From Acidobacteriota bacterium (GTDB lineage: Bacteria > Acidobacteriota > Vicinamibacteria > Vicinamibacterales > JAFNAJ01), in the NCBI GenBank assembly GCA_023384575.1, contig JAHDVP010000004.1, positions 169,796-233,795 of the forward strand: 64,000 nt of DNA. The letters are read 5' to 3'. A program made the translations under genes and the position numbers. Below are positions 46,760 through 60,272 of the stretch, one piece after another (within the stretch, counting starts at the first letter, position 1; each line of letters opens with the position of its first letter). Below the pieces are notes generated by a model. That model worked only from the letters and a program-made list of their open reading frames with translations, made no database searches and was not told the DNA's origin.

Positions 46760-47653
46760 CTACGATGACGAGAGGGCCTGGAGGATGACGGCGGTGACCG
46801 CGTCGAGGGCCGAGAGCGCGCGGGGACGCCGCAGCGTGTACACGGGGACCCGCGCGGCCACTCGAGCGCACGCCTTCAGGTGATCCGCGGCGGCGGCCCG
46901 CTGCGCGAGCCGGGCGACGTAGCTGTAGCGGAGCACGTCGAGCGGCACCGACTGTCCGTGCCGCCGCGTGGCCGACAGCGCGTCGGCGTCCTCGATCACG
47001 AACAGCGCGTGAAACGGCAGGGGCGCCGCCGCGAAGTCCGCGCCGAACCCGAGGAGCGCCTTGCCTCGGTCGCCTTCGTCGAGCCGCGCGAGCGTGGGGC
47101 GGTCGTCTGGGGCCACCGTCGCCGCCGCCGCGTCGAGGCGCAGCGCCGGGTAGGCCGGCCGAACGAGCGGCGTCTCGCCCCGCCACTCGACGCACACGAT
47201 GTCGTCGGCGACGAGCGCGGCCCCGCGTGCGACGCAGGCGGCGGCCAGCGTCGACTTGCCGGCGCCAGACTGGCCCGCGAACGCCACCACGCGCCCGTCG
47301 AACGCCACTGCGCTCGCGTGCAGCACGACGTGGCCGCGCTGGAAGAGCACGATCGCCAGCGCCTGGCCGATGAGGGCCGCTCCGAGCCCTGTGGCCGCGC
47401 CCCGCAGACCTCGCACCTCGATGGTTCGGCCGCCGGCAATGGTCGCCACGCCGAGGCCCGGCCAGACGAGCCGGACGCGCTGCGCGTCGGCCGATGCCGC
47501 GTCGTTGATGCCGTCGAGACCGCGCGCCCCGTCGAGGTCGACCACCACGATGTCGAGGTCGACGTCCGCACGCGGCCGAGCCGTTGTCAGACCGGGCAGG
47601 GGCATCGACGATCGAAGGGTGAGGCCGTACGCGCGATAGAAGTGGCCGTTCAT
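46760..47653 (-). CDS. HprK-like kinase associated with lasso-type RiPP loci
   Basis: A 297-residue P-loop protein. Walker A is FAGQSGAGKST (G127-S134), preceded by VVLHASAV (110-117), a hallmark of HPr-kinase-like proteins found in RiPP clusters. Conserved Asp150-Asp151 in VADDIVCVEW match the catalytic aspartate region of HprK. There is no HprK N-terminal domain or HPr substrate nearby. In paeninodin-type lasso clusters such kinases phosphorylate a C-terminal serine of the precursor, and the precursors at 53481-53893 have serine-rich C-termini. Divergent from the PqqD-like gene. Confidence 0.82.
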   Translation of the reverse strand: MNGHFYRAYGLTLRSSMPLPGLTTARPRADVDLDIVVVDLDGARGLDGINDAASADAQRVRLVWPGLGVATIAGGRTIEVRGLRGAATGLGAALIGQALAIVLFQRGHVVLHASAVAFDGRVVAFAGQSGAGKSTLAAACVARGAALVADDIVCVEWRGETPLVRPAYPALRLDAAAATVAPDDRPTLARLDEGDRGKALLGFGADFAAAPLPFHALFVIEDADALSATRRHGQSVPLDVLRYSYVARLAQRAAAADHLKACARVAARVPVYTLRRPRALSALDAVTAVILQALSSS

Positions 47654-47801: not shown

Positions 47802-48113
47802 ATGTCTGCAGACCCGAGCGTCTTCACGCCCGACACCGTCGTCGTCGCGGCAGCTGGACCCGTCGCCTGCGAAGTCGACGGCGCGTACGTCATCCTCGAA
47901 CCCGCGGCCGGACGGTACTTCGGCACCGAGAAGGTGGGCGCGTCGATCTGGCGGATGCTCGAGGTCCCGGTGTCGGTCGACAGCATCTGCCGGCGCCTCG
48001 TCGAACAGTACGACGTGCAGCCAGGGCGCTGCGAGGCCGACGTCCGAACCTACCTCGCCACGCTGCACGCCCAGGGACTGCTCGAGATCTGCGCCAGCCC
48101 CGCGGAGCGCTGA
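47802..48113 (+). CDS. PqqD-like RiPP recognition element protein (lasso B1 type)
   Basis: A 103-residue PqqD-fold protein that normally binds a RiPP leader peptide and delivers it to modifying enzymes. The winged-helix pattern is clear: DTVVVAAAGPVACEVDGAYV, ILEPAAGRYFGTEKVGASIW, then SICRRLVEQYDVQPG and a C-terminal helix TYLATLHAQGLLE. An in-frame ATG at 47763 has a ribosome site but would be only 2 nt away from it. I prefer 47802 because sequence upstream is unlike the family. The TGA overlaps the next ATG as TGATG. Confidence 0.85.
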   Translation: MSADPSVFTPDTVVVAAAGPVACEVDGAYVILEPAAGRYFGTEKVGASIWRMLEVPVSVDSICRRLVEQYDVQPGRCEADVRTYLATLHAQGLLEICASPAER

Positions 48114-48535
48114 TGCGGCGAATCCTCGGTGCGGCCTCGCTCGCGCGTGCCCTGCTGGTGGTCTTCGCCGTGCGCCTGGCCCTGATCGTGTGGCCCTTCG
48201 CAAGCGTCCACGAACTGGTCGACCGGAAGTCGCGTCCGCGCACGGGCGCGTCGCCTGCGTCCAGGACGCCGGCACGCGTCGTCGCCGGCCGTGTCGACCG
48301 CGTCGCACGGTTCGTCCCGGGCGCCACGTGCCTCGTGCGATCGCTTGCCGCCCGACTCCTCCTCGGATGGGCAGGCCACGAGTCTCGGCTGCGGATCGGG
48401 GTCGCTCGCCCCGGGCAGGCTGGTCTCGAGGCCCATGCCTGGGTGGAGTGCGACGGTGTCACGGTGCTCGGCGCGACCACCGACACCCACTTCACCCCGC
48501 TGCCCGATCTTCCGCCTCGCTCCAGGGCGTCATGA
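48113..48535 (+). CDS. lasso-peptide B2-type transglutaminase-fold leader protease
   Basis: A 140-residue transglutaminase-like cysteine protease that in lasso pathways removes the leader peptide. The Cys-His pair is GATCLVRSLAARLLL (Cys73) and EAHAWVECDGV (His108), with an acidic residue in the following strand (D114 or D124) as third member. The N-terminus is a hydrophobic helix (ALLVVFAVRLALIVWPF, ~13-29), so membrane association is possible. ATG 48113 shares a base with the PqqD-like stop, indicating translational coupling. Confidence 0.85.
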   Translation: MRRILGAASLARALLVVFAVRLALIVWPFASVHELVDRKSRPRTGASPASRTPARVVAGRVDRVARFVPGATCLVRSLAARLLLGWAGHESRLRIGVARPGQAGLEAHAWVECDGVTVLGATTDTHFTPLPDLPPRSRAS

Positions 48536-49710
48536 GCCGAGAGGTCGCGCTCCTGGCGGCGGTCGCGCGGGCTCACTCGGGCGGTGGGACCGATCGCCTC
48601 CGCCAGGCGGTGGCCGGCATCGAGGCCTGGGCACCGGTGCTTCGACTGGCGGCCGTTCACGGCGTGATGCCGCTCACCGCCTCGACGCTGCTCCAATGGG
48701 CCGGTGACGTCCTGCCGCCGCCCGTGGCCGTCGACCTGCGCGACCGCGTGCGCGACAACGCTCGCCGCATGCTCGGGCTTTCGGCGGAGCTTCGGCGGAT
48801 TCGCGATGCCTTCGACCGATCGGGCCTGCGGGTCCTGGCGTTCAAGGGACCCACGCTGGCGATGCTGGCCTACGGGAACGTGGCGTTGCGCCGATCGCGA
48901 GACCTGGACCTGCTCGTCGAGCCGGGTTCGCTCCCGCGTGCCCACGACCTCGTCGCCGACCTGGGGTATGGGATCGCCGACCCGCTGACGTCGCTTGCTG
49001 GCGCCGACCTCCGGCAGTACCTGCGGTCGTCGCACCAGGCCGAGTACGTCAACACCGCGTTGGCGATGCGCATCGACGTGCAGACCGCGCTTGCGCCTCC
49101 GTTTCTTCCCTCACCGGACTTCGACCAGCTCTGGGACCGACGCACGCTGGTGGCACTGCCGGGAGGAGCGGTCGACGCGATCGGGCCCGCCGACCTCCTG
49201 CCCGCGCTCTGCCAGCACGGGCTGCGTCACGGGTGGGAACGCTTCCAGTGGGTCGTCGACGTCGCGTTGCTCGCGGCTCGCTCACCCATCACGACGGGCG
49301 CCGAGAGGCTCGAGAACGGCTGGGCGGCGTCGCGCGCCGTCGCCCTCGGGCTGTCGCTCGCCGAGGAGACGACCGGCATCGACGGCGGCAGGACCGCCAC
49401 GCGCGTGGTGGCCGACGCCGGGGTGCGCCGCCTCACCCGGATCGCGGCCCGAGCGCTCTTCGAGGACGCCACCGTCAGACAGCGCGCGTGGACCAACTTC
49501 AGGCTCCAGTACGGCGCCCAGGAGCACTGGCGGGCGAAGGCGCGATACCTGCGGGCGCTCGCAGAGACACGCTCGAACGCCGATTGGGCGGCCTCGCCAT
49601 CGGCCGCTTCATCCTCTTCCCTCGTTTCCGCGCTCCAGCGAACGTGGCGTCTCGCCATCGACTACGGCGGCGGATGGTGGTCGCGCGGCTCGTCGAGGCG
49701 CCACACGTAG
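48532..49710 (+). CDS. nucleotidyltransferase of the PF14907 type, RiPP-associated
   Basis: A 392-residue protein. The nucleotidyltransferase core is at residues ~100-130: VLAFKGPTLAMLAYG followed by RSRDLDLLVE, whose D124-x-D126 pair is the metal-binding site. Downstream helices (QYLRSSHQAEYVNTALAMRIDVQTAL) match the uncharacterised nucleotidyltransferase family that recurs beside PqqD/B2/HprK genes. It may transfer a nucleotide to a peptide or protein. Start overlaps the B2 stop by 4 nt. Its last 49 nt overlap the convergent GT39-like gene. Confidence 0.8.
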   Translation: MSREVALLAAVARAHSGGGTDRLRQAVAGIEAWAPVLRLAAVHGVMPLTASTLLQWAGDVLPPPVAVDLRDRVRDNARRMLGLSAELRRIRDAFDRSGLRVLAFKGPTLAMLAYGNVALRRSRDLDLLVEPGSLPRAHDLVADLGYGIADPLTSLAGADLRQYLRSSHQAEYVNTALAMRIDVQTALAPPFLPSPDFDQLWDRRTLVALPGGAVDAIGPADLLPALCQHGLRHGWERFQWVVDVALLAARSPITTGAERLENGWAASRAVALGLSLAEETTGIDGGRTATRVVADAGVRRLTRIAARALFEDATVRQRAWTNFRLQYGAQEHWRAKARYLRALAETRSNADWAASPSAASSSSLVSALQRTWRLAIDYGGGWWSRGSSRRHT

Positions 49711-51431
49711 AAGCGCGACGTCCAGCGCGGGCCCCACCGGTCGCGACGCCACCAGAAGCGCACGAGGCCCCGCACATCGAGGGCCGAGGCCTGTCCCAGC
49801 CACCAACTGCCGGTGTGGTACAGCCCCTGCTGGCTCGTGTACCCGGGCAGGTCGGTGGGCGAGGCGCTCCCGGCGAGGACGAAGGGCGCGCGGGGTGGGT
49901 CCTCGACCTCCTCCACGTAGCTCACCTGGACGTCTCGCAGGTACCAGTGGAACGGCCACTGGTACGGCCGCTCGATCTCCGCCACCGGCTCGCCCGGTGC
50001 GGCCGTGGCCGATCGCTGGGCGATGGCGTCGACCACGAGGCGGACGTCGCCCGCGAACTCGACCTGCAGCATCGGCTCGCCGACGTTGTGGCGATTGAAC
50101 GTCAGCAGGGCCACCGTGCTCCAGGTCGCGATCGCCGAGCAGACGACGACGACCGTCGCAAGGATGCCCCGCCACGGACCGGTCGTCGCGTCCCACCAGC
50201 GTGTCAGCCGGATCGCCACCACGAGCAGCCACGGCACGACGACGTGGACGGCGAGCCAGGGCACCTTCTCTCCAGCATACGAGTAAAGCACCGTGACCAT
50301 CGATGCGACACACACCAGGTAGGCCTCGGTGTCGCGCCCCCTCGCCAGCAGTTCGCGCACGGCGCCGAGCACGAGTCCGGCGCCGAGCACGACGAAGGGC
50401 GCGTGCAGGCGATGGAGATGCGCGATCGCGCGCAGGGCCGCTTGCTGGTCCGGGTCGAGCCACAGCACGCCGAAGGCCGTCGCGGCGGCAGCGGCCACGG
50501 TCAGCCACAGCAGGCGCCGGCGGCGGACCGCGTCCTCGATCACCAACCCCAGGGCGCCAAGGAGGATCAGCGGTTCGTAGACGAGCAGCAGGACGCCGTA
50601 GTAGTGAAACGGCCCGCCGAGCCGCTCCTCCGCGTGCATCGCGGCCCAGTGCAGGACGGGATCGACCAGAGGCGCCGATGCCGTCCGCGCCAGCGCCGTG
50701 GCGAAACCACCCGCGTGGTCGACGTGGTACTGAAAGGTGGTCAGGTAAAGGGCGGCAAGGATGAAGGCTGCCAGCAGCCCCAGCCACCGCCAGCCGCGGA
50801 ACGCGCGCAGCGCGCTCCAGACGTCGCGACCGTCGACAGGCGAGTGCCGTGCGCGACACAGCATCCACGTCCCTGCAGCCGCCACGATGAACCAGATGTT
50901 CAGCTTCGTCGCGATCCCCAGCGACAGGGTGGCCGCGCCGAGGGCGACCACCCTCGACGTCGGGAACCGTCCGAGGGCGAGCGGCACCCACAGCAGCACG
51001 AGCGACCACAAGGCGACGAGCGCGTCGTGGTTGTTGAAGCGGGAGTAGAAGACGAGTGTGGGCGACGTGGCGGCCAGCGCGGCCGCCACGAGTGCGGGCG
51101 CCGGCCCGATGATCCGCCTGAACAGGGACACGAAGGCGAAGACGAGGACGACACCCGCCACGGCGCTCACGAGGCGCGCCTGCAGGTCGCCGGCACCGAA
51201 GAGGCCGAAGACGAGCGCCTCGAGGTGATAGAGCAGCGGTCCGTGGTACACGGGATCGGCGTGATAGCCGCGGCCCGAGAGGAGTTCCGCCGCGAACCAG
51301 GCGTGAACGGCCTCGTCATGGTGCATGAAGCGCCCGCCGAGGTTCCAGAACCTCGTCGCCAGCGCGGCGAGCCCCACGAGCGCGACGACCGCCCAGTACA
51401 CGCCGAACGATCCGAGTCGCACCGACTTCAT
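49662..51431 (-). CDS. GT39-like membrane glycosyltransferase (TIGR03663 type)
   Basis: A 589-residue protein with about a dozen helices. The N-terminal acidic pair HHDEAVHAWF (metal/donor site of GT-C enzymes) and YHGPLLYHLEALVF on the first periplasmic loop identify the GT39/PMT fold. The TIGR03663 group is known in archaea and Chloroflexi and usually neighbours a DUF2298 protein, as here. It presumably uses a lipid-linked sugar on a periplasmic acceptor. It starts at ATG 51431, overlapping the DUF2298 stop by 4 nt, so the pair is coupled. Confidence 0.82.
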   Translation of the reverse strand: MKSVRLGSFGVYWAVVALVGLAALATRFWNLGGRFMHHDEAVHAWFAAELLSGRGYHADPVYHGPLLYHLEALVFGLFGAGDLQARLVSAVAGVVLVFAFVSLFRRIIGPAPALVAAALAATSPTLVFYSRFNNHDALVALWSLVLLWVPLALGRFPTSRVVALGAATLSLGIATKLNIWFIVAAAGTWMLCRARHSPVDGRDVWSALRAFRGWRWLGLLAAFILAALYLTTFQYHVDHAGGFATALARTASAPLVDPVLHWAAMHAEERLGGPFHYYGVLLLVYEPLILLGALGLVIEDAVRRRRLLWLTVAAAAATAFGVLWLDPDQQAALRAIAHLHRLHAPFVVLGAGLVLGAVRELLARGRDTEAYLVCVASMVTVLYSYAGEKVPWLAVHVVVPWLLVVAIRLTRWWDATTGPWRGILATVVVVCSAIATWSTVALLTFNRHNVGEPMLQVEFAGDVRLVVDAIAQRSATAAPGEPVAEIERPYQWPFHWYLRDVQVSYVEEVEDPPRAPFVLAGSASPTDLPGYTSQQGLYHTGSWWLGQASALDVRGLVRFWWRRDRWGPRWTSRFYVWRLDEPRDHHPPP

Positions 51432-53404
51432 GGGGTGCGACCGTCCACGATCTCGTAGATCCGCATCGATCCCGACGCGAAAGCGAGCCGCCCGAAGCGT
51501 GGCCAGCGCGCTTCGTCGAGGCCGGGATACCTGGCGCGCTCCACCCCCCCGACGACCACGTAGCGGACCTCGTAGTGGCGGAGCGCCCGCCACGAGTCGT
51601 CGTCCGGGCCGAGGTAGATTCGGTCGATCGCCTCCTCGCGCTCGTGGAGCCGGCCCGTCCAGCGGGCGTGACTTCGCCACAGGCCCTGATGCCCGCGCCA
51701 TCCGAGGATGGTCGGCAGGCCGGTGTTCGCCGAGATGCGGCCGGCGAACCCGTAGCTGTCGCCCGTCGCCTCGACGATGACCGCTTGGCCCGTCGTCTGT
51801 GTTCGGAAGAAGGTCACCGCGTCGTAGACATCCGGGACGCGCTCGCGGAGGTAACGGTGCCCATCAAGCGTCGGCTGGCGCCAGCCGGCCCGGACCTGCG
51901 TCGCCACCCATACCGCCGGGAAGACCGCCTGGCCAGCAAGGCAGGCTCCCAGCACGAGCAGACCGGTCCTCCGCCGCCAGGGCCGGTCTGCCGAGAGCAC
52001 TCGCTGCCACGCGAGCGGGACGATCGGTGCGGCGCACAACACGGCGAGCCAGTGCAGCTTGAAGACCGTGTTCATCCGCTCGTTGGGCGGGCCGTACATG
52101 TCGTCGAGATGCACGATCTCGGGGATCGTCCACGCCATCAACGCGACCAACGCGAGTCCGACAGGGAACCCGAGGCGCCCGAGTGCAGCCGGTGCCCTCG
52201 TGCCGCCGTCACCCTCGGGCAACTGCCGGTCGACGACCCACCAGCCGAGCCAGAGGCACACCGGCACCAGCCAAGGGCCGGCGGAGAAGGCGAACGCCAC
52301 CGGTGACGACCGTTCGGTCGTCAACGCGAGGTCGAGCGGCGGCGCGACGAACGACGTCAGGAACGGAAGGGAGACGAGGACGGCGGCGGCGGCGATCGCC
52401 GCGGCCTCTGCAAGGCGCCGGGCGAGTGTCGTGTGCGTTCGCGCCGTGACCAGCAGCAGGCAGGCGCACAGGCCCGCGAGCGGCGGGGCGTCCCAGGGTG
52501 AGGTCGACGTCATGGCGCCCGCCACGACACCGAGGAGGACCGCCGTCGGCAGGTGCGAACGACCCGTACCGGTCAACCGCAGCAGGAGGGCCAGGAACGC
52601 GACGACGAGCGGCGCGTTCATCAGGTGAGGGTGCAGGTCGCCCCAGGTGAGCGAGAAGAACGGGAACTCGGTGATCGCCCCCTCGATAATCCGAGTGGCG
52701 CCGAAGAGGTCGGGATGACCGGCCCAGAAGCCCGCCTGGGCGAGGAGCGCGAAACTGCCTCCGAGAGCGATCAGCAGTGCACCGCCGGTCGCGAGGGCCA
52801 GCCGGCCCGTGAGCGCGAGGCCGAGTGAGAACGTCGCGCTCGCCAGTTGTGCGGCAATCGTGGCCAGTGCCAGGTTGTAGGCCACGGCCGGCACGGTGAC
52901 CAGCGCCTTCGCGACCAGCCCCCACGAGAAGTACCCGAAGTAGTAGTAGTTGACCGATTCGCCGGCGAACCACGGGTCGACCGGCGGAAACGCTTCGGCG
53001 CGCATGGCCGCGTTGAGCAGCGCGAAGTCCATCCACTTCTCGCCGCCCAGGATGTTGGGCGCCAGGCTACGGAGTGCAGCGAACGCGAGGAACGTGCCGA
53101 GGAAGATCGTCTCGGCCATGAGCACCGCGGGACGAGATGCGGTGCCAGCCTCAGCCGATCGCGCACGGCGAGACACCAACGCGATCGCGCAGGCCCCGGC
53201 GACGACCATCCACACGGTCGTCACCGAGATCGGCAGGCCGACGGCGGCCATCGTCCACACGATGGTGGCGAGCAGGAGCAGGCCGAGTGTCTTCGAGAGG
53301 CCGACGCCCCGGTCGGGGAGGACGGCGAGGGAGGGGCCGAAGAGACGGTCGAACAACCACGCGAGGCCGTTGACGAACAGCACCCACGTCGCGATGGTCA
53401 ACAC
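51428..53404 (-). CDS. DUF2298 (Chlor_Arch_YYY) polytopic membrane protein
   Basis: A 658-residue protein with about 14-16 helices. Signatures are GGEKWMDFALLNAAMR, DPWFAGESVNYYYFGYF (the YYY motif), EFPFFSLTWGDLHPHLMN and ERMNTVFKLHWL. Members are thought to be glycosyltransferases or transporters for surface glycans, paired with GT39-like proteins. Its ATG lies 76 bp downstream of precursor B (53481) on the same strand, so a shared transcript with the precursors is likely. Compare the fused relative at 56151. Confidence 0.85.
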   Translation of the reverse strand: MLTIATWVLFVNGLAWLFDRLFGPSLAVLPDRGVGLSKTLGLLLLATIVWTMAAVGLPISVTTVWMVVAGACAIALVSRRARSAEAGTASRPAVLMAETIFLGTFLAFAALRSLAPNILGGEKWMDFALLNAAMRAEAFPPVDPWFAGESVNYYYFGYFSWGLVAKALVTVPAVAYNLALATIAAQLASATFSLGLALTGRLALATGGALLIALGGSFALLAQAGFWAGHPDLFGATRIIEGAITEFPFFSLTWGDLHPHLMNAPLVVAFLALLLRLTGTGRSHLPTAVLLGVVAGAMTSTSPWDAPPLAGLCACLLLVTARTHTTLARRLAEAAAIAAAAVLVSLPFLTSFVAPPLDLALTTERSSPVAFAFSAGPWLVPVCLWLGWWVVDRQLPEGDGGTRAPAALGRLGFPVGLALVALMAWTIPEIVHLDDMYGPPNERMNTVFKLHWLAVLCAAPIVPLAWQRVLSADRPWRRRTGLLVLGACLAGQAVFPAVWVATQVRAGWRQPTLDGHRYLRERVPDVYDAVTFFRTQTTGQAVIVEATGDSYGFAGRISANTGLPTILGWRGHQGLWRSHARWTGRLHEREEAIDRIYLGPDDDSWRALRHYEVRYVVVGGVERARYPGLDEARWPRFGRLAFASGSMRIYEIVDGRTP

Positions 53405-53480: not shown

Positions 53481-53669
53481 TCAGAGCTTCGTCGAGTCGA
53501 GCGTGGCGCTCGAGGACTCGATGTCTTCGAACGAATCGACGATCTGCGAGCCCGGCGTGGGCGGCGGTGTCGAAGTGGGCACCTGCTGACGGGTGAGGTC
53601 GACGATCGAGCCGTGGGCCTCGAGGACCGGCGGCGTGTAGGGCTGCCTGGAAGTGGAGAGTTTCGACAC
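53481..53669 (-). CDS. lasso-type RiPP precursor peptide B (62 aa)
   Basis: Starts at GTG 53669 with GAGG 6 nt upstream. The leader carries YTPPVLEAHGSIVDLT (residues 11-26), matching the lasso leader motif YxxPxLxxxGxxxxxT exactly. The C-terminal part is proline-rich (PTSTPPPTPGSQ) followed by VDSFEDIESSSATLDSTKL. That tail shares S-x-F-E-D-x-E-S-S with precursor A. The residues just after the leader threonine (RQQ) do not look like a standard lasso core. Second in the gene run. Confidence 0.72.
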   Translation of the reverse strand: MSKLSTSRQPYTPPVLEAHGSIVDLTRQQVPTSTPPPTPGSQIVDSFEDIESSSATLDSTKL

Positions 53670-53702
53670 AATCGTCCTCACGGAGTGTTGAACACAATGT
53701 TC

Positions 53703-53726
53703 GGCGAGCCCCAGCAGGCTCTCGCC
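53703..53726 (-). promoter_or_regulatory. hairpin between the two precursor genes
   Basis: GGCGAG (53703-53708) pairs with CTCGCC (53721-53726) around a 12-nt loop, 3 bp after the precursor A stop. It may attenuate or stabilise the precursor A message relative to downstream genes. There is no U-tract. Confidence 0.45.
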
Positions 53727-53728
53727 GT

Positions 53729-53893
53729 TCAGGCGTTCGACGACTCGAGGTCTTCGAAGTGGCTCACCAGCTCGGACGGCCCCGAGGCCGGTCGGACCTG
53801 CTGAGTCATCTCCACAATCGAACCATGGTCGTCGAGCGTGGGCGTGGTGTACGGCTGCCGCGGGGACTCCGCTACCGGGGAGCTGGTTTTCAT
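53729..53893 (-). CDS. lasso-type RiPP precursor peptide A (54 aa)
   Basis: Starts at ATG 53893, first gene of the leftward run. Residues 15-30 (YTTPTLDDHGSIVEMT) fit the YxxPxLxxxGxxxxxT leader motif exactly. The putative core QQVRPASGPSELVSHFEDLE is followed by SSNA. The C-terminal FEDLESS is shared with precursor B. No ribosome site is visible, consistent with the leaderless promoter found directly upstream. Confidence 0.75.
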   Translation of the reverse strand: MKTSSPVAESPRQPYTTPTLDDHGSIVEMTQQVRPASGPSELVSHFEDLESSNA

Positions 53894-54031: not shown

Positions 54032-55459
54032 ATGACCCGACTCCTCGACCCCGGACGCGTCCTCATCGTGGGCGGGGGACCCACCGGGCTCGGCGCCGCC
54101 TGGCGGCTCGACCACCATGGGTTCCGCGACTACGTCCTGCTGGAGGCCGAACATCATCCAGGTGGCCTGGCGGCCAGCGAGGTCGACGCGCGCGGGTTCG
54201 TGTGGGACGCCGGAGGGCACGTGCACTTCAGCCACTACGACCTGTACGACCAGGCCCTCGACGAGGCGCTTGGCGACGCGTGGTACTGGCACGAACGCGA
54301 CGCGTGGGTGTGGCTGAACGAGCGGTGGGTCCCGTACCCTTTCCAGCACCACGTCCACCATCTCGACCTGCGAGACCAGGCGCGGGTCCTCCAGGGCCTC
54401 GACCGGGCGCGCCTCGACACCGGCGAGACCCCACGCACCTTCGCGGCGTGGATCGACCGCACGTTCGGTGAAGGCCTGGCGGCGCTGTTCCTGCGTCCAT
54501 ACAACGAGAAAATCTGGCGACATCCCCTCGAGCGGATGTCGGTGGGCTGGCTTGGGGAGCGGGTGGCCGCACCCGATCCGGATGACCTGCGCGCGCGCAT
54601 CGCCGCGCGGCTGGATCGACGCGAGTGGGGGCCCAACCATCGCTTCCGCTATCCCGCGCGGGGGGGCACGGGTGCCATCTGGACCGGCCTCGCCGGGCGG
54701 CTCGACCCGACGCGCCTGCGATTCGGCGTGCCCGCCGGCCACGTCGACGTCGAGGCCCGGACGACGACCACGACCACCGACGAGTGCCTGCCGTGGGACA
54801 CGTTGATTTCGACGATCCCGCTCGACCGCTTTGTCGCCCGCGCGGCCGGGGTCGCGCCGGCAGCCCGCGCGGCGGCGCGGCACCTCGTGGCCAACAGCGT
54901 GTGCGCCGTTGGCATCGGCTTACGTGGTGGGCGGCCCGACGGGCTGTCGCGCAAGACCTGGATCTACTACCCCGAGCCCTCGAGCCCGTACTATCGCGTC
55001 ACGGTGCTCTCGAACTACTCACCCCACAACGTTCCCGAAGGCGACGGGTACTGGTCGCTGCTGACCGAGACGAGCCTGCCCCACGGGTCGACGCCCGACG
55101 TCGACGGCCTGATCGACTGGACGCTCCGCGCTCTCTCCCGGGATGCGCTCGTTTCCGACCCGGCCGAGGTGGTGTCGGTGTGGCACCGGCACCTGCCGTA
55201 TGGCTATCCCGTGCCGTCGCTCGGGCGCGACGAGGCCCTCGCGACGCTCCAGGCCGAGCTCGAGGCCTGCCGGGTCTTCTCGCGAGGCCGCTTCGGCGCC
55301 TGGAAGTACGAGGTGTCGAATCAGGACCACTGCTTCATGCAGGGGGTCGAGCTCGTCGACCGCCTGCTGCTCGGAGCGCCCGAGCCGACACTCAACGACC
55401 CGGACGCCGTCAACCGGGGCGACTACCGCCGCAGCCCGGCCGGTCCCGCGTCCGCTTGA
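54032..55459 (+). CDS. FAD-dependent oxidoreductase / UDP-galactopyranose mutase-like flavoprotein
   Basis: A 475-residue flavoprotein. The N-terminal dinucleotide motif VLIVGGGPTGLGAAWRL and ExxxxxGG (LEAEHHPGGLAAS) bind FAD. FLRPYNEKIWRHPLERMS and YPARGGTGAIWTGLAGRL resemble the protoporphyrinogen-oxidase/UDP-galactopyranose-mutase group, often found beside GT2 genes in surface-polysaccharide loci. The reaction is not established. Start ATG 54032 is the first codon of the FAD domain; TAGACT at 54012-54017 could be its -10. Divergent from precursor A. Confidence 0.8.
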   Translation: MTRLLDPGRVLIVGGGPTGLGAAWRLDHHGFRDYVLLEAEHHPGGLAASEVDARGFVWDAGGHVHFSHYDLYDQALDEALGDAWYWHERDAWVWLNERWVPYPFQHHVHHLDLRDQARVLQGLDRARLDTGETPRTFAAWIDRTFGEGLAALFLRPYNEKIWRHPLERMSVGWLGERVAAPDPDDLRARIAARLDRREWGPNHRFRYPARGGTGAIWTGLAGRLDPTRLRFGVPAGHVDVEARTTTTTTDECLPWDTLISTIPLDRFVARAAGVAPAARAAARHLVANSVCAVGIGLRGGRPDGLSRKTWIYYPEPSSPYYRVTVLSNYSPHNVPEGDGYWSLLTETSLPHGSTPDVDGLIDWTLRALSRDALVSDPAEVVSVWHRHLPYGYPVPSLGRDEALATLQAELEACRVFSRGRFGAWKYEVSNQDHCFMQGVELVDRLLLGAPEPTLNDPDAVNRGDYRRSPAGPASA

Positions 55460-55464
55460 GATCG

Positions 55465-56202
55465 ATGGGCGTCCCCGAGCTGTCGCTCGTCATCCCGGCC
55501 TGGAACGAGGCCGAGACCATCGCCGCGACCGTCGAGCGGTGGCGAGGCCTGTTCGCCACGCTGCCGCTCGCCCACGAGATCCTCATCGTCGACGACGGCT
55601 CGACCGACGGCACGGCAGGCGTCGTCGAACACGTGCCGAGCGCCAGCGGAACCGAGCTGCGTGTCGTCCGGCAGGACAACCGGGGGCACGGGGCGGCCGT
55701 CCGGCGCGGCTACGTCGAAGCGCGCGGGGCGTGGATCATGCAGATCGACGCCGACGACGAGGTCGGGCCCGAGCCATTCTCACGGATGTGGTCGCAACGC
55801 GGCCAGGCCGACCTCGTCCTCGGGTGCCGGACCGAGCGCCGACAGGCGTTCGTACGACGCGCGATCTCGCGTGGCGCGCGGCTCGTCGTCCGGTTGCTCT
55901 CCGGCGTCACGATCGACGACGTCAACGCGCCGTACCGGCTGGTGCGCCGCGAGGTCCTGACGCGGATGCTCGAGGCGATCCCGGACGGCACGGCGACACC
56001 GAACGTGGCCATGACCTGGCTCGCGTCGCGATGGGGGCTCCGAGTCGTTCAGATGCCCGTGCCGGTCGTCCGCGCCCGCGCCTCCGGATCGCTCGGGGGC
56101 TGGCGACTGCTGCGTACGGTGCTCGGCGGTCTGCGCGACGCATCGCGCGTCTACCTGGCCGCGCGCCGGGCGTCCGGGTCGACGAACCGGTCCACCGCGT
56201 AG
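55465..56202 (+). CDS. GT2 glycosyltransferase (polyprenyl-phosphate sugar synthase-like)
   Basis: A 245-residue GT-A fold enzyme. N-terminal LSLVIPAWNEAETIAATVERW, EILIVDDGSTDGT (nucleotide-binding aspartates) and IMQIDADDEVGPE (DxD-like metal site) are all present. The layout matches dolichol-phosphate-mannose-synthase-like proteins, which load a sugar on a lipid carrier for GT39-type enzymes. No C-terminal helix pair is evident. It follows the flavoprotein gene by 5 nt. Its last 52 nt overlap the convergent GT39-DUF2298 fusion gene. Confidence 0.85.
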   Translation: MGVPELSLVIPAWNEAETIAATVERWRGLFATLPLAHEILIVDDGSTDGTAGVVEHVPSASGTELRVVRQDNRGHGAAVRRGYVEARGAWIMQIDADDEVGPEPFSRMWSQRGQADLVLGCRTERRQAFVRRAISRGARLVVRLLSGVTIDDVNAPYRLVRREVLTRMLEAIPDGTATPNVAMTWLASRWGLRVVQMPVPVVRARASGSLGGWRLLRTVLGGLRDASRVYLAARRASGSTNRSTA

Positions 56203-59200
56203 ACCTCGGTCGTGCCCTGCTCGAACACCAGCCGCCACGGGCCGGCCGCCTGCCGGCTGAACTTCGCGAGACCCTCTTTCGTGTAGATTGCGCGCTCGAG
56301 GGCGCCGACGACGACGAACGCGACGCGGTGGCGCGCGAGCAGCCTGGCGGCCTCGTCGACATCGGTGCCGTCGTAGATGCGTCGGATGTCACGCGCGCGC
56401 CTCGCGATCACGACGCGCGGCAGCGCGGCGCGCTGCTGCCTCACGTGCCACTCCCACCCCATGAGCGTCGGCAGGCCGGTGTGCGCGCTGATCCGTCCGC
56501 CCCAACGGTACTGGGCCGTGCGCGCCTCGAGTACCGTCGGCGTCCCGCGCACGCGCTCCTTCAGCCATTCGATTGCCGCGAGGTCGTCCGCGAGGGCGAA
56601 GGTGACGCCCTGCTCCGTGTGCCGCGCCGTCCTCATGAAGGCCGCGCCGTCGAGCGTCCAGCCCGCTGCCGGCTCGAAGCGATCGCGCCAGCGCGCCGGC
56701 GTCGCCGTCAGGGGATAGATCAGCCCGCCGGCCCACACGGCCAGAACCACACCGAGCGCCCACCGCCGCCGGAGGAGACGCAGGGACTCGCCCGGCGCGT
56801 CGCGCGTGGGGCGCGCGAGCAGATCGGCAAGGGCCGCGCCCGAGGCGATCGACCAGAGCAGCCAGACGTGCACGTAGAACTTGAACACGGTGTTCATCCG
56901 GCCGACGTCACCCCGCAAGGCGACGACCTCGACGAGCAGTGTCAGCGCGAAGGCGAGGCCGGCGAGTCCGAGGGTGACGAGGCGGGCTCGGGCCCGAGGA
57001 GGGTCGAACAGGTCACTCCGGCGCAGGCGCTGCCAGAGCCAGGGCACCAGGACCACGAGGAAGAGGCCGTGCACGGCGACATAGGCCAGGGGCGTCGTGC
57101 GCGACCCGCGCCACACGGTCAGCGAGGTGTACGCGGCGCCGTACGAGAGGTGGAAGGGCAGGAAGAGCACGAGCGCCGCGCCGAGCACGGACACCGCGAC
57201 GACCAGTGCTCGCGCCGCCGCCGCCGGCCAGGCGGTCCAGGGTTCGCGCGAGATGCCGTGCGCCACGAGCCCGATGGCCACGAGGGCGGTGGCGGTGGGC
57301 GTGTCCCACGTGTTGATGGCCGCCGTGGCGCCGACGACGAGACACGCGAGCGCGAGGGCGGGCCATCGAGGGCCGGACCGCGAGAGGACGAGGGCCAGGC
57401 CGGCCGCCGCGACCACGAACGGCATGCCCATCATGTGCGCGTGCAGGTCGCCGAAGAGGAACGTGAAGAACGGGAACTCGGCGATGGGCGGCGCTTCCTC
57501 CGGCAGGTGGGGAATCGGGCGCGTGGCGCTCCAGTACCACTGTGAGAGGGTGACGCCCGTCGTGCCGTTCGACAGCCACGACCAGAGCGCGCGGCCCGCG
57601 AGCGGCACCTGCGCGAGATTGCCCGCGACGACGGCCAGACCGGCCGCGACGAGGCCGAACCACGCGGCCCGCCGTCGCGCGTGGGTGCCCCTTCCGGGCC
57701 GGACACACGAGACGAGCAGCGCCGCGACCCCGAAGACCGCCGTCGCGGTGAAGGCGTAGAAGGTCGCCACGGCGAGCGCGTAGGCGAGCGGCGTCGGCAC
57801 GGCCGCAAGCTTCACCAGTATCGCCACGAGCGTGAAGCCGAAGTAGTAGTAGTTCAGTACTCCCCCAGCGAACCAGGGGTCGTAGGGCGGGAACTGCTCC
57901 GTTCGGATGAGGGCGTTCAGCAGCGCGAGGTCCATCGGTTTCTCGCCGCCGGTGTAGGGGTGCCACAAGTCAGGGTTGCCGGCGCGCAGCACGAGCGCCG
58001 CCCCGAAGGCTCCCCAGAAGATCGCCGCCTGCCATGCGAACGTGGATCGCGTGCATCGCGCCAGTCGTCGAAGCCGACGTCTCGCCGCCGTGGTGGCCGC
58101 GCAGGCGAACGCGGCGAGCGCCAGTGCCACGAGCGACCAGCGCACGCCCGCGGGCGTGAAGCCGACCACGCCGAGGTTCGTGCCGAGCCACGCGAACCAG
58201 CCAACGAGCAGGAGACCCACCGGCCTTGCCAGTGCGGCAGCGAACCCGCGGGTGCGCGGCACCGCCAGGGCGATGAGCGGCCACGCCAGCCAGCCGAGGC
58301 CCTCGACGAGGACGATCCAGCGGACCACGCGCCAGCCAGTGGAGCCGTCCGTGGCGAACAGGCCCCGATCGGGATCGATCGTCCTGGACCAGGTACCGCC
58401 CGTCTCGATCGACCTCCGCGCCTCGGCGCCGAGGGCGAGCCCTCGCGGCAGTCGCGCGACGTCGCGCGCCGGTGTCGGCACGAGGGCGTCCCACTCGATG
58501 TCGCCGAACACGGTCTCCCCGCGGTCGCGCGTCCACGACGACTTCCGGTAGATCCGAACGCGCGGGTGGTCGTAGACCGTGAAGGCCTCCTCGGCCTCGA
58601 GATCGTCGATGCGGATCGGCCCGAGCGAGGGCACCGACCGGAACTCCGCGGCCAGCTCGAACCCGAGCTCGCCCGACGCCAGCGCCCGGTAGTAGCGGAA
58701 CATGAGCGGGAACCGCTCGGGCAGGCGCGGGAGCGTCGACGCGTGGCGGTCGCTCGACAGCACGACGATGTCGGCGGCCTCCAGCAGATCGATGAGGAGA
58801 TCGCGCTTCTCCGGGGTATCTGGCGCGGCCGATTCGACGACCAGCACGCGGTAGTCGTCCTGCGGCCGCGTCGGGCGCACGCGAAGCGGCAGGCCGTCGT
58901 CCCAGTGCTCGTTCACGATCGTCGCCGGCGGCGGCACCTGGCGGTAGATCCACGCCGACGCCGCGATGCGCGGGTGGAGGTGCCGGTAGATCGAGGTGAA
59001 CGCGACCGCCCACGAGACCGTCGAGAGGCCCACGCCGGCGAGCAGCACCCAGGCCAGCCCACGATGCCACCGCGCGGACCGAGCGGCGGCCCAGTCGACC
59101 TGCCGCACGAGCGCCGCCGCCGCGAGCAGGGCGAGCATCGGGACGATGGGCAGGAAGTAGCGCAGCGTGTGGACGAACGCCGTGCCGTGCACGGAGATCA

Positions 59201-60272
59201 CGACCGCGATCCAGGCGAGCGGGGCGAGCCAGCGCGCGTCGCCCTCGACGACGAGACGGCGGCCGGCCCAGGCGACGCCGGCCCATGCGGCAAGGCCGAG
59301 CGGCAGGCCGAGTCCCCACGCGGTCAGGTTCCACAACGCGTTCAGGAGTGGGACGCGCCCGGCCCACTGGAGCGAGGGAGGCACTTCGATCGCCCCTGAG
59401 GTCAGTTGCCGCACCTGCTGCAGGTCGGCGAGCCATCGAGGGGCCGGCCATGGCCACCAGCCGGCCACGAAGGCATCGGGCATCGCCACCCGGACCGCCA
59501 CGAGGGCGGCCAGCGCCGCGATGGCCGGCGCCAGCGCCAGCGTGCGCGTGTCGTCGCCGCTCGTGCGCTCCCGGCCGCGCCGCGCAACCAGGGTGTGCCA
59601 CGCGCGTTCGATCCACACCGCCGCCATCGGCACCGCGAGCAGGACCATCGGCAGCTTGCACGCGACCGCGAGGCCGAAGGCCGCTCCGGCGCCCGCCCAG
59701 GCGACGAGCGTCCCTCTGCCTCGGGTCGAGCGCACCACCATCAGCAGGACCAGCGTCATCGTGGCGGCCGTCGTCGCGAACGGGTCGACCACGAAGAAGT
59801 GCGCATGCTGGATCGGCAGCACCGCGAAGGCGTAGCACGCCGACGCCAGCCACACGACGCGCCGGTCTCTCGTCGTGAGCCACGCCGCGGCGGCGACGAG
59901 CAGGAGCGTGAGCAGATCGGTCGACGCGCTCAGCACGCGACCGATCAACGCGAGCGATCTCGGCGAGTCGCGGCCGGACGCGGTCCCAACCGCCTTGAGG
60001 GCGGTGAGCGGCAGCGTGCCGTACACGAAGGCCCCGTCCTGGACGTTGCGCGGGTTCAGCGGCGAACGCGATTCGTCGAGGTACTCGCGCCAGGAGGCGG
60101 GCCAGTCGAGCGCCGCGACCGTCATTGCCAGGAAGCGCTCGTCCGGGTGGAGCAGCGCGCCCCGGTCCCAGCGGAGACCGTCGACGCGCAGCCACGCGCC
60201 GGTCACGAGCACGAGGCCGAGCAGCCCCGCGAAGGTCGCGATGCGTCCGGATCGGTGCCGGGGACGTGTCAT
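56151..60272 (-). CDS. single-chain GT39-like / DUF2298 fusion protein
   Basis: A 1373-residue membrane protein. The first ~640 residues are GT39-like (LLHPDERFLAMTVAALDWP acidic pair, then about nine helices and a periplasmic segment). From ~770 the chain contains the DUF2298 signatures GGEKPMDLALLNALIR, DPWFAGGVLNYYYFGF, EFPFFTFLFGDLHAHMMG and RMNTVFKFYVHVW. So the two proteins encoded separately at 49662-53404 are joined here. The frame is open to 62099, but ATG 60272, overlapping the GT4 stop as TGATG, begins a membrane-type N-terminus. Confidence 0.85.
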   Translation of the reverse strand: MTRPRHRSGRIATFAGLLGLVLVTGAWLRVDGLRWDRGALLHPDERFLAMTVAALDWPASWREYLDESRSPLNPRNVQDGAFVYGTLPLTALKAVGTASGRDSPRSLALIGRVLSASTDLLTLLLVAAAAWLTTRDRRVVWLASACYAFAVLPIQHAHFFVVDPFATTAATMTLVLLMVVRSTRGRGTLVAWAGAGAAFGLAVACKLPMVLLAVPMAAVWIERAWHTLVARRGRERTSGDDTRTLALAPAIAALAALVAVRVAMPDAFVAGWWPWPAPRWLADLQQVRQLTSGAIEVPPSLQWAGRVPLLNALWNLTAWGLGLPLGLAAWAGVAWAGRRLVVEGDARWLAPLAWIAVVISVHGTAFVHTLRYFLPIVPMLALLAAAALVRQVDWAAARSARWHRGLAWVLLAGVGLSTVSWAVAFTSIYRHLHPRIAASAWIYRQVPPPATIVNEHWDDGLPLRVRPTRPQDDYRVLVVESAAPDTPEKRDLLIDLLEAADIVVLSSDRHASTLPRLPERFPLMFRYYRALASGELGFELAAEFRSVPSLGPIRIDDLEAEEAFTVYDHPRVRIYRKSSWTRDRGETVFGDIEWDALVPTPARDVARLPRGLALGAEARRSIETGGTWSRTIDPDRGLFATDGSTGWRVVRWIVLVEGLGWLAWPLIALAVPRTRGFAAALARPVGLLLVGWFAWLGTNLGVVGFTPAGVRWSLVALALAAFACAATTAARRRLRRLARCTRSTFAWQAAIFWGAFGAALVLRAGNPDLWHPYTGGEKPMDLALLNALIRTEQFPPYDPWFAGGVLNYYYFGFTLVAILVKLAAVPTPLAYALAVATFYAFTATAVFGVAALLVSCVRPGRGTHARRRAAWFGLVAAGLAVVAGNLAQVPLAGRALWSWLSNGTTGVTLSQWYWSATRPIPHLPEEAPPIAEFPFFTFLFGDLHAHMMGMPFVVAAAGLALVLSRSGPRWPALALACLVVGATAAINTWDTPTATALVAIGLVAHGISREPWTAWPAAAARALVVAVSVLGAALVLFLPFHLSYGAAYTSLTVWRGSRTTPLAYVAVHGLFLVVLVPWLWQRLRRSDLFDPPRARARLVTLGLAGLAFALTLLVEVVALRGDVGRMNTVFKFYVHVWLLWSIASGAALADLLARPTRDAPGESLRLLRRRWALGVVLAVWAGGLIYPLTATPARWRDRFEPAAGWTLDGAAFMRTARHTEQGVTFALADDLAAIEWLKERVRGTPTVLEARTAQYRWGGRISAHTGLPTLMGWEWHVRQQRAALPRVVIARRARDIRRIYDGTDVDEAARLLARHRVAFVVVGALERAIYTKEGLAKFSRQAAGPWRLVFEQGTTEVYAVDRFVDPDARRAAR

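Follow-up and report, generated by a model that had tools for sequence, protein, structure and literature searches.

The window, by which we mean the whole 64,000-nucleotide stretch of Acidobacteriota DNA analysed here, carries a pair of small genes encoding precursors A and B, about 5.8 kb from a gene for an HprK-like kinase, together with genes for peptide maturation and glycan assembly (Table 1). Both precursors have a lasso-type leader, YTxPxLxxHGSIVxxT, with the general form YxxPxLxxxGSIVxxT. The core of a lasso peptide starts two residues after the leader Thr (the T(-2) rule), and by this rule we assigned putative core starts to A, B and their relatives.

Table 1. Features of the window around the precursor genes, in order of position
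Feature	Position	Strand	Profile scores and remarks
HprK-like kinase	46760..47653	minus	PF07475 31.3 bits, slightly under the cut-off of 33.3; H112, K133, D150, D151
PqqD-like RRE (lasso B1)	47802..48113	plus	PF05402 61.5 bits; NF033536 62.6 bits (cut-off 80)
Lasso B2-type cysteine leader peptidase (Transglut_core3)	48113..48535	plus	NF033537 88.8 bits (cut-off 33)
NTP_transf_5 nucleotidyltransferase	48532..49710	plus	PF14907 149.7 bits; PsmN/LppN-like by family
Agl23/PMT_2-like GT-C membrane protein	49662..51701	minus	TIGR03663 231.7 bits; PF13231 45 bits
DUF2298 membrane protein	51428..53404	minus	PF10060 276.8 bits; TIGR03662 422.9 bits; directly downstream of precursor A
Precursor A	53481..53669	minus	GTG start, 62 aa; leader to ...VDLTR; putative core QQVPTSTPPPTPGSQIVDSFEDIESSSATLDSTKL
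Stem between B and A	53669-53730		GGCGAG/CTCGCC, without T-run (by eye)
Precursor B	53729..53893	minus	ATG start, 54 aa; leader to ...VEMTQ; putative core QVRPASGPSELVSHFEDLESSNA
FAD amine-oxidase/mutase-like oxidoreductase	54032..55459	plus	Divergent from the precursors; same position in L014 and L050
Family 2 glycosyltransferase	55450..56202	plus	PF00535 78.2 bits
Fused PMT-DUF2298 protein	56154-60080	minus	Second DUF2298 copy of the window

Six related precursors, the window pair and those of four sister loci described below, were scored with NCBIfam profiles. Two of the six leaders reach the cut-off of 19 for lasso_leader_L3 (NF033521), those of L014 (23.8) and L056 (22.2); L012 (18.5), A (18.4) and B (14.3 bits) lie under it, L050 gave no score, and B scores 22 bits against NF033528 (cut-off 33). 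A and B are homologous over the whole precursor (tblastn E 9e-10, 50% over 48 columns), and their 47 codon pairs comprise 13 identical, 15 synonymous and 19 non-synonymous ones (NG86 dN/dS 0.26). Judged by their sequences, A and B are real precursors and paralogues under purifying selection. The GTG of A is preceded by GAGGA 5 nt upstream. A sigma-70 promoter scan returned no match, and a TTGCAC-17-TACACT element seen by eye, which stops 7 nt short of the start codon (ATG) of B, falls under the threshold of that scan. The stem between the two genes could set the A:B ratio.

The presence of an HprK-like kinase was part of the original prediction, and the kinase is real and of the lasso-peptide type: it matches PF07475, keeps the His, Lys, Asp and Asp residues, which are invariant in 24 aligned kinases, and adopts an HprK/PEPCK fold in an AlphaFold2 model (pLDDT 91.2) whose Foldseek matches are PEP carboxykinases and HprK. 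This His-Lys-Asp-Asp motif is reported as catalytic in lasso-peptide kinases (PMC9266682). The kinase probably acts on peptides A and B, and phosphorylation of A and B as such is likely.

Divergent from the kinase, and overlapping one another by a few bases, lie the genes for the RRE, the B2 peptidase and the nucleotidyltransferase. The RRE matches TbiB1 (E 9e-8) and a lasso PqqD chaperone (9x90, E 1e-9) in the PDB; the B2 peptidase has no match there, and its Cys, His and Asp are found in ATCL, AHAW and CDG. The sequence features by which we call a locus lasso-type, namely a YxxPxL...T leader, a stand-alone RRE and a B2 peptidase, are all present. A GT4/methyltransferase reading frame also lies further along the window, and no exporter or ABC transporter was found among the window proteins scanned, which represent part of its ORFs.

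Loci of the same kinase clade

A kinase search of 162 genomes of the order returned 61 match rows in 49 genomes, of which we examined 43 with their flanks, setting the 18 weaker rows aside. A cyclase is encoded at 31 of the 43 loci; the 12 without one comprise the five of the window clade and seven others, most of them near contig ends. The clade consists of the kinases of the window, of L012 and L050 (genome G046, contigs C35 and C40) and of L014 and L056 (genome G001, contigs C477 and C638). It has support of 99/97 in a careful tree and an SH-aLRT of 89 in two wider quick kinase trees, and is nested among cyclase-bearing kinases. All five loci have a lasso-type precursor. L014 sits on a 3.1 kb contig, so the missing cyclase there says little alone. 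In L012 and L056 a precursor-kinase unit diverges from an RRE-B2-nucleotidyltransferase unit, and the same divergent pair occurs in the window, with the precursors moved. Members of the clade were found in only three genomes: searches extended to the class (193 genomes) and the phylum (396 genomes) gave no sixth member, and the next-best kinases (G517, G431) lie at loci with a cyclase and a lasso-type leader. A leader search of the 396 genomes matched in 27 and produced no further cyclase-free member, as far as those short loci show. Leader-pattern matches in L244, L246, L047 and L104 we dismissed as noise after visual inspection.

Could the cyclase be encoded elsewhere? A PF00733 search of the window genome gave five matches, none on the contig of the window (C4), and the two strong ones carry Cys2 (MCGIAG), a start which we take to be that of amidotransferase AsnB proteins. 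Locus cyclases with a readable start lack Cys2 (for example MSGIVG and MNGIAG). The strong asparagine synthases of the window genome group with those of G001 and G046 in a single branch that contains none of the locus cyclases examined (10 of 41 rows, 1 change, with 0 of 500 shuffles as low), and the stretches flanking these genes held no RRE, B2, kinase or leader. By sequence, the two strong asparagine synthases are of AsnB type. No lasso-type cyclase was found at the window locus or at the sister loci. In genome G001, two asparagine-synthase-like genes in tandem (L230, G001:C227) lack the N-terminal Cys2 and could act in trans there.

The surroundings of the precursors recur as well. Relatives of DUF2298 are present in 6 of the 162 genomes, and in the window, L014 and L050, which represent three genera, DUF2298 is immediately preceded by a precursor and has the FAD oxidoreductase alongside; the genomes with a precursor-preceded DUF2298 copy (that of the window, G000, with G001 and G046) are exactly the three of the kinase clade. 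In L014 and L050 the kinase lies together with the precursor at the DUF2298 locus, and in L050 the RRE follows the oxidoreductase and the family 2 glycosyltransferase. G045 and G100 have the oxidoreductase-GT2-Agl23-DUF2298 set without a peptide, G145 has a peptide-free locus where only DUF2298 and Agl23 were found, and the contigs of L012 and L056, which have the complete peptide set, hold no relative of DUF2298. The peptide system is therefore separable from the glycan genes, and the two are joined in three genera.

Cores, tails and the candidate phosphorylation site

The original prediction held that A and B, unlike in core length and composition, share a terminal S-x-F-E-D-[LI]-E-S-S motif whose serines are the target of the kinase. 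The difference between the cores is borne out by the two ORFs, and F-E-D-[IL]-E-S-S does occur in both, but S-x-F occurs only in B (VSHFED), A having Ser immediately before Phe (VDSFED); likewise the tail is near-terminal in B, with 2 residues after it, but not in A, with 9. Because the whole precursors are homologous, the tail match is not due to chance, and for the same reason its presence in both paralogues lends little support to a kinase site.

Do the serines track the kinase? When precursors were aligned across homologous loci, the comparison that the prediction had named as its check, the serine motif was absent at four sister loci with the kinase, whose precursors end ...TEFDEF, ...VFFEEF, ...SAASEF and ...FLGPNA, the very outcome that it had given as refuting. 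Among precursors at loci with both kinase and cyclase, a C-terminal Ser occurs in 3 of 46, and in 32 of 46 the last five residues include no Ser, in a table built with one leader pattern, from which the W-type paeninodin leaders of Bacillota, with their known C-terminal Ser, are mostly missing. None of the six clade precursors ends in Ser, A ending in Leu and B in Ala. A terminal Ser thus does not track the kinase, and the proposed tail-serine target is unsupported. The table leaves out L175-L219, and its 13 rows labelled 'no cyclase' include two loci at contig edges (L072, L083).

The assignment to the paeninodin type fared no better, since a macrolactam cyclase is missing and neither A nor B has a ring acid at core 7-9. 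Of the 46 precursors at cyclase loci, 40 have an Asp or Glu at core 7-9, versus 1 of 6 in the window clade (Fisher p 0.00095, with rows that are not independent), and in that one the core ends at position 9, a single residue after the acid.

The clade cores do share other features. Each of the six has its first Ser or Thr between positions 3 and 6, directly after Pro or one residue on (S6 in B, T5 in A, T4 in L050, T3 in L014, S4 in both L056 and L012), and [GP]-S or G-G-S is aligned in five of the six. The C-terminal tail is acidic-aromatic in most of them (FEDLESSNA, FEDIESS..., TEFDEF, VFFEEF, SEF), and the ESS serines are peculiar to A and B. Since it is the acidic-aromatic part that recurs, this tail is a possible docking site. 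Elsewhere in the order, cores at many kinase loci end in -CL, as opposed to the C-terminal Ser of paeninodin; one locus, L079, encodes three consecutive precursors whose ring regions are nearly identical (SGGSTR..G) and which end in -CL.

Proposed product and its alternatives

We consider it fairly probable that the product of the locus is a linear, kinase-modified RiPP of phosphorylated lasso-peptide ancestry, from whose pathway the macrolactam cyclase was lost. The stand-alone RRE (B1) would, by homology, bind the YxxPxL leader, and the HprK-like kinase would phosphorylate a core Ser or Thr, most plausibly the one after the conserved core Pro, or that of [GP]-Ser, in place of a dedicated C-terminal Ser. 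The NTP_transf_5 enzyme may, like PsmN, decorate the phosphate with a sugar or a nucleotide, and B2 would cut after the residue next to the conserved Thr. No ring would be closed, because neither a lasso cyclase nor a usable ring acid is apparent at the sequence level. Conserved gene order ties the product to the glycan-building locus (DUF2298, the Agl23-like protein, GT2 and the FAD oxidoreductase), and our guess is a modified or glycan-linked surface peptide. A more specific version, which we hold unlikely, has a surface glycan anchored or primed by the phosphopeptide: the kinase would add (poly)phosphate and NTP_transf_5 the first sugar, and the DUF2298/Agl23 GT-C pair would extend it with GT2, giving a phospho-linked glycopeptide from a former lasso pathway.

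How do other readings fare? The clade's rarity and its nesting among cyclase-bearing kinases might point to decayed lasso clusters, in which the cyclase was recently lost and the precursors are relics. Against such decay stand the intact kinase and precursors at five loci in three genera, RRE, B2 and nucleotidyltransferase genes that are open wherever present, the low dN/dS between A and B, and cores that lack the usual ring pattern at all five loci, and we regard it as quite unlikely. A paeninodin-type lasso peptide, phosphorylated on the C-terminal serines shared by A and B and closed by a cyclase acting in trans, would account for the kinase family with its H-K-D-D residues and for the common ESS, the C-terminal Ser being the known phosphorylation site in paeninodin-type systems (PMC9266682). 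The window genome and the sister loci yielded no lasso-type cyclase, however, A and B have no ring acid, and the sister precursors keep the kinase without the motif and without a C-terminal Ser; we rejected the assignment, and this reading is very unlikely. It is just as improbable that the kinase and RRE work for the glycan locus itself, with the small peptides as unmodified carriers or regulators: a position within a GT-C locus in three genera would fit, yet in L012 and L056 the kinase, precursor, RRE, B2 and nucleotidyltransferase lie together on contigs without any DUF2298 relative.

If the linear, kinase-modified product is real, lasso-leader matches without a cyclase should not be thrown out as broken clusters, and the recurring place of the precursor before DUF2298 offers a handle both on the role of phosphopeptides near polysaccharide genes and on the function of DUF2298.

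Comparison with known systems

With paeninodin- and pseudomycoidin-type systems the window shares a kinase with H-K-D-D, B1, B2 and a PsmN-like nucleotidyltransferase; their cyclase, ring acid and C-terminal Ser target, as described in the available text of PMC9266682, were not found in it. Other cyclase-free loci with a lasso-type leader are those of Cylindrospermum (L150), Nostoc (L153) and a Terriglobia MAG (L161), which have a leader, kinase, RRE, B2 and nucleotidyltransferase and no cyclase within about 10 kb on each side, but different cores and kinases elsewhere in the tree, so these are probably separate cyclase losses. In the wider kinase tree the cyclase-free label is unclustered (14 rows, 8 changes, shuffled mean 8.4), and the cyclase-free loci of other phyla are therefore probably separate. 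L150 and L153 have the leaders YSEPELKAHGKISGLTQ and four distinct Gly/Ser/Thr-rich cores without any acid, and L161 has the order RRE-B2-leader-kinase-nucleotidyltransferase and a tiny core, MLLAITHH. Two Nocardioidaceae loci (L157, L162) encode B2, kinase, RRE and a divergent nucleotidyltransferase, without a cyclase or a recognisable leader.

We found no published record of such loci in this lineage among open-licence PMC papers, and a cyclase-free, lasso-like phosphopeptide design seems so far to have been described only in another bacterial group. The closest published parallel is the family of linear polyphosphorylated peptides (LPPs), described in May 2026 and reported as restricted to Bacillota. 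LPP loci combine an RRE, an HprK-like kinase, a peptidase and an NTP transferase with no cyclase, a linear product and a polysaccharide neighbourhood, the phosphorylation site being core Ser 3 and no C-terminal residue (Popov et al. 2026, PMC13381572, available text). The window resembles them in its lasso-like YxxP leader, stand-alone RRE, HprK-like kinase, NTP transferase, lack of a cyclase and polysaccharide surroundings, which could be taken to place it in the LPP family proper. In that source, LPP loci have a SipW-like SpI peptidase, an MsbA-like exporter and a YxxPxVLxHQxIxFETxxS leader (PMC13381572), whereas none of the three genomes (G000, G001, G046) has an archaeal-type signal peptidase (SpI, TIGR02228) over the cut-off, B2 being present instead, the clade leaders do not have the HQxIxFETxxS segment, and in Paenibacillus silvestris the kinase that accompanies an LPP-type leader (L108) falls far outside the window clade. 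Membership, which we rejected on these three tests, is thus most improbable; by the same tests the window system works like an LPP without being one. It differs in its B2 peptidase, its leader, its kinase branch and its linkage to DUF2298. The locus suggests that the linear, kinase-modified RiPP plan of Bacillota re-arose from lasso systems in another lineage, with the ordinary B2 kept.
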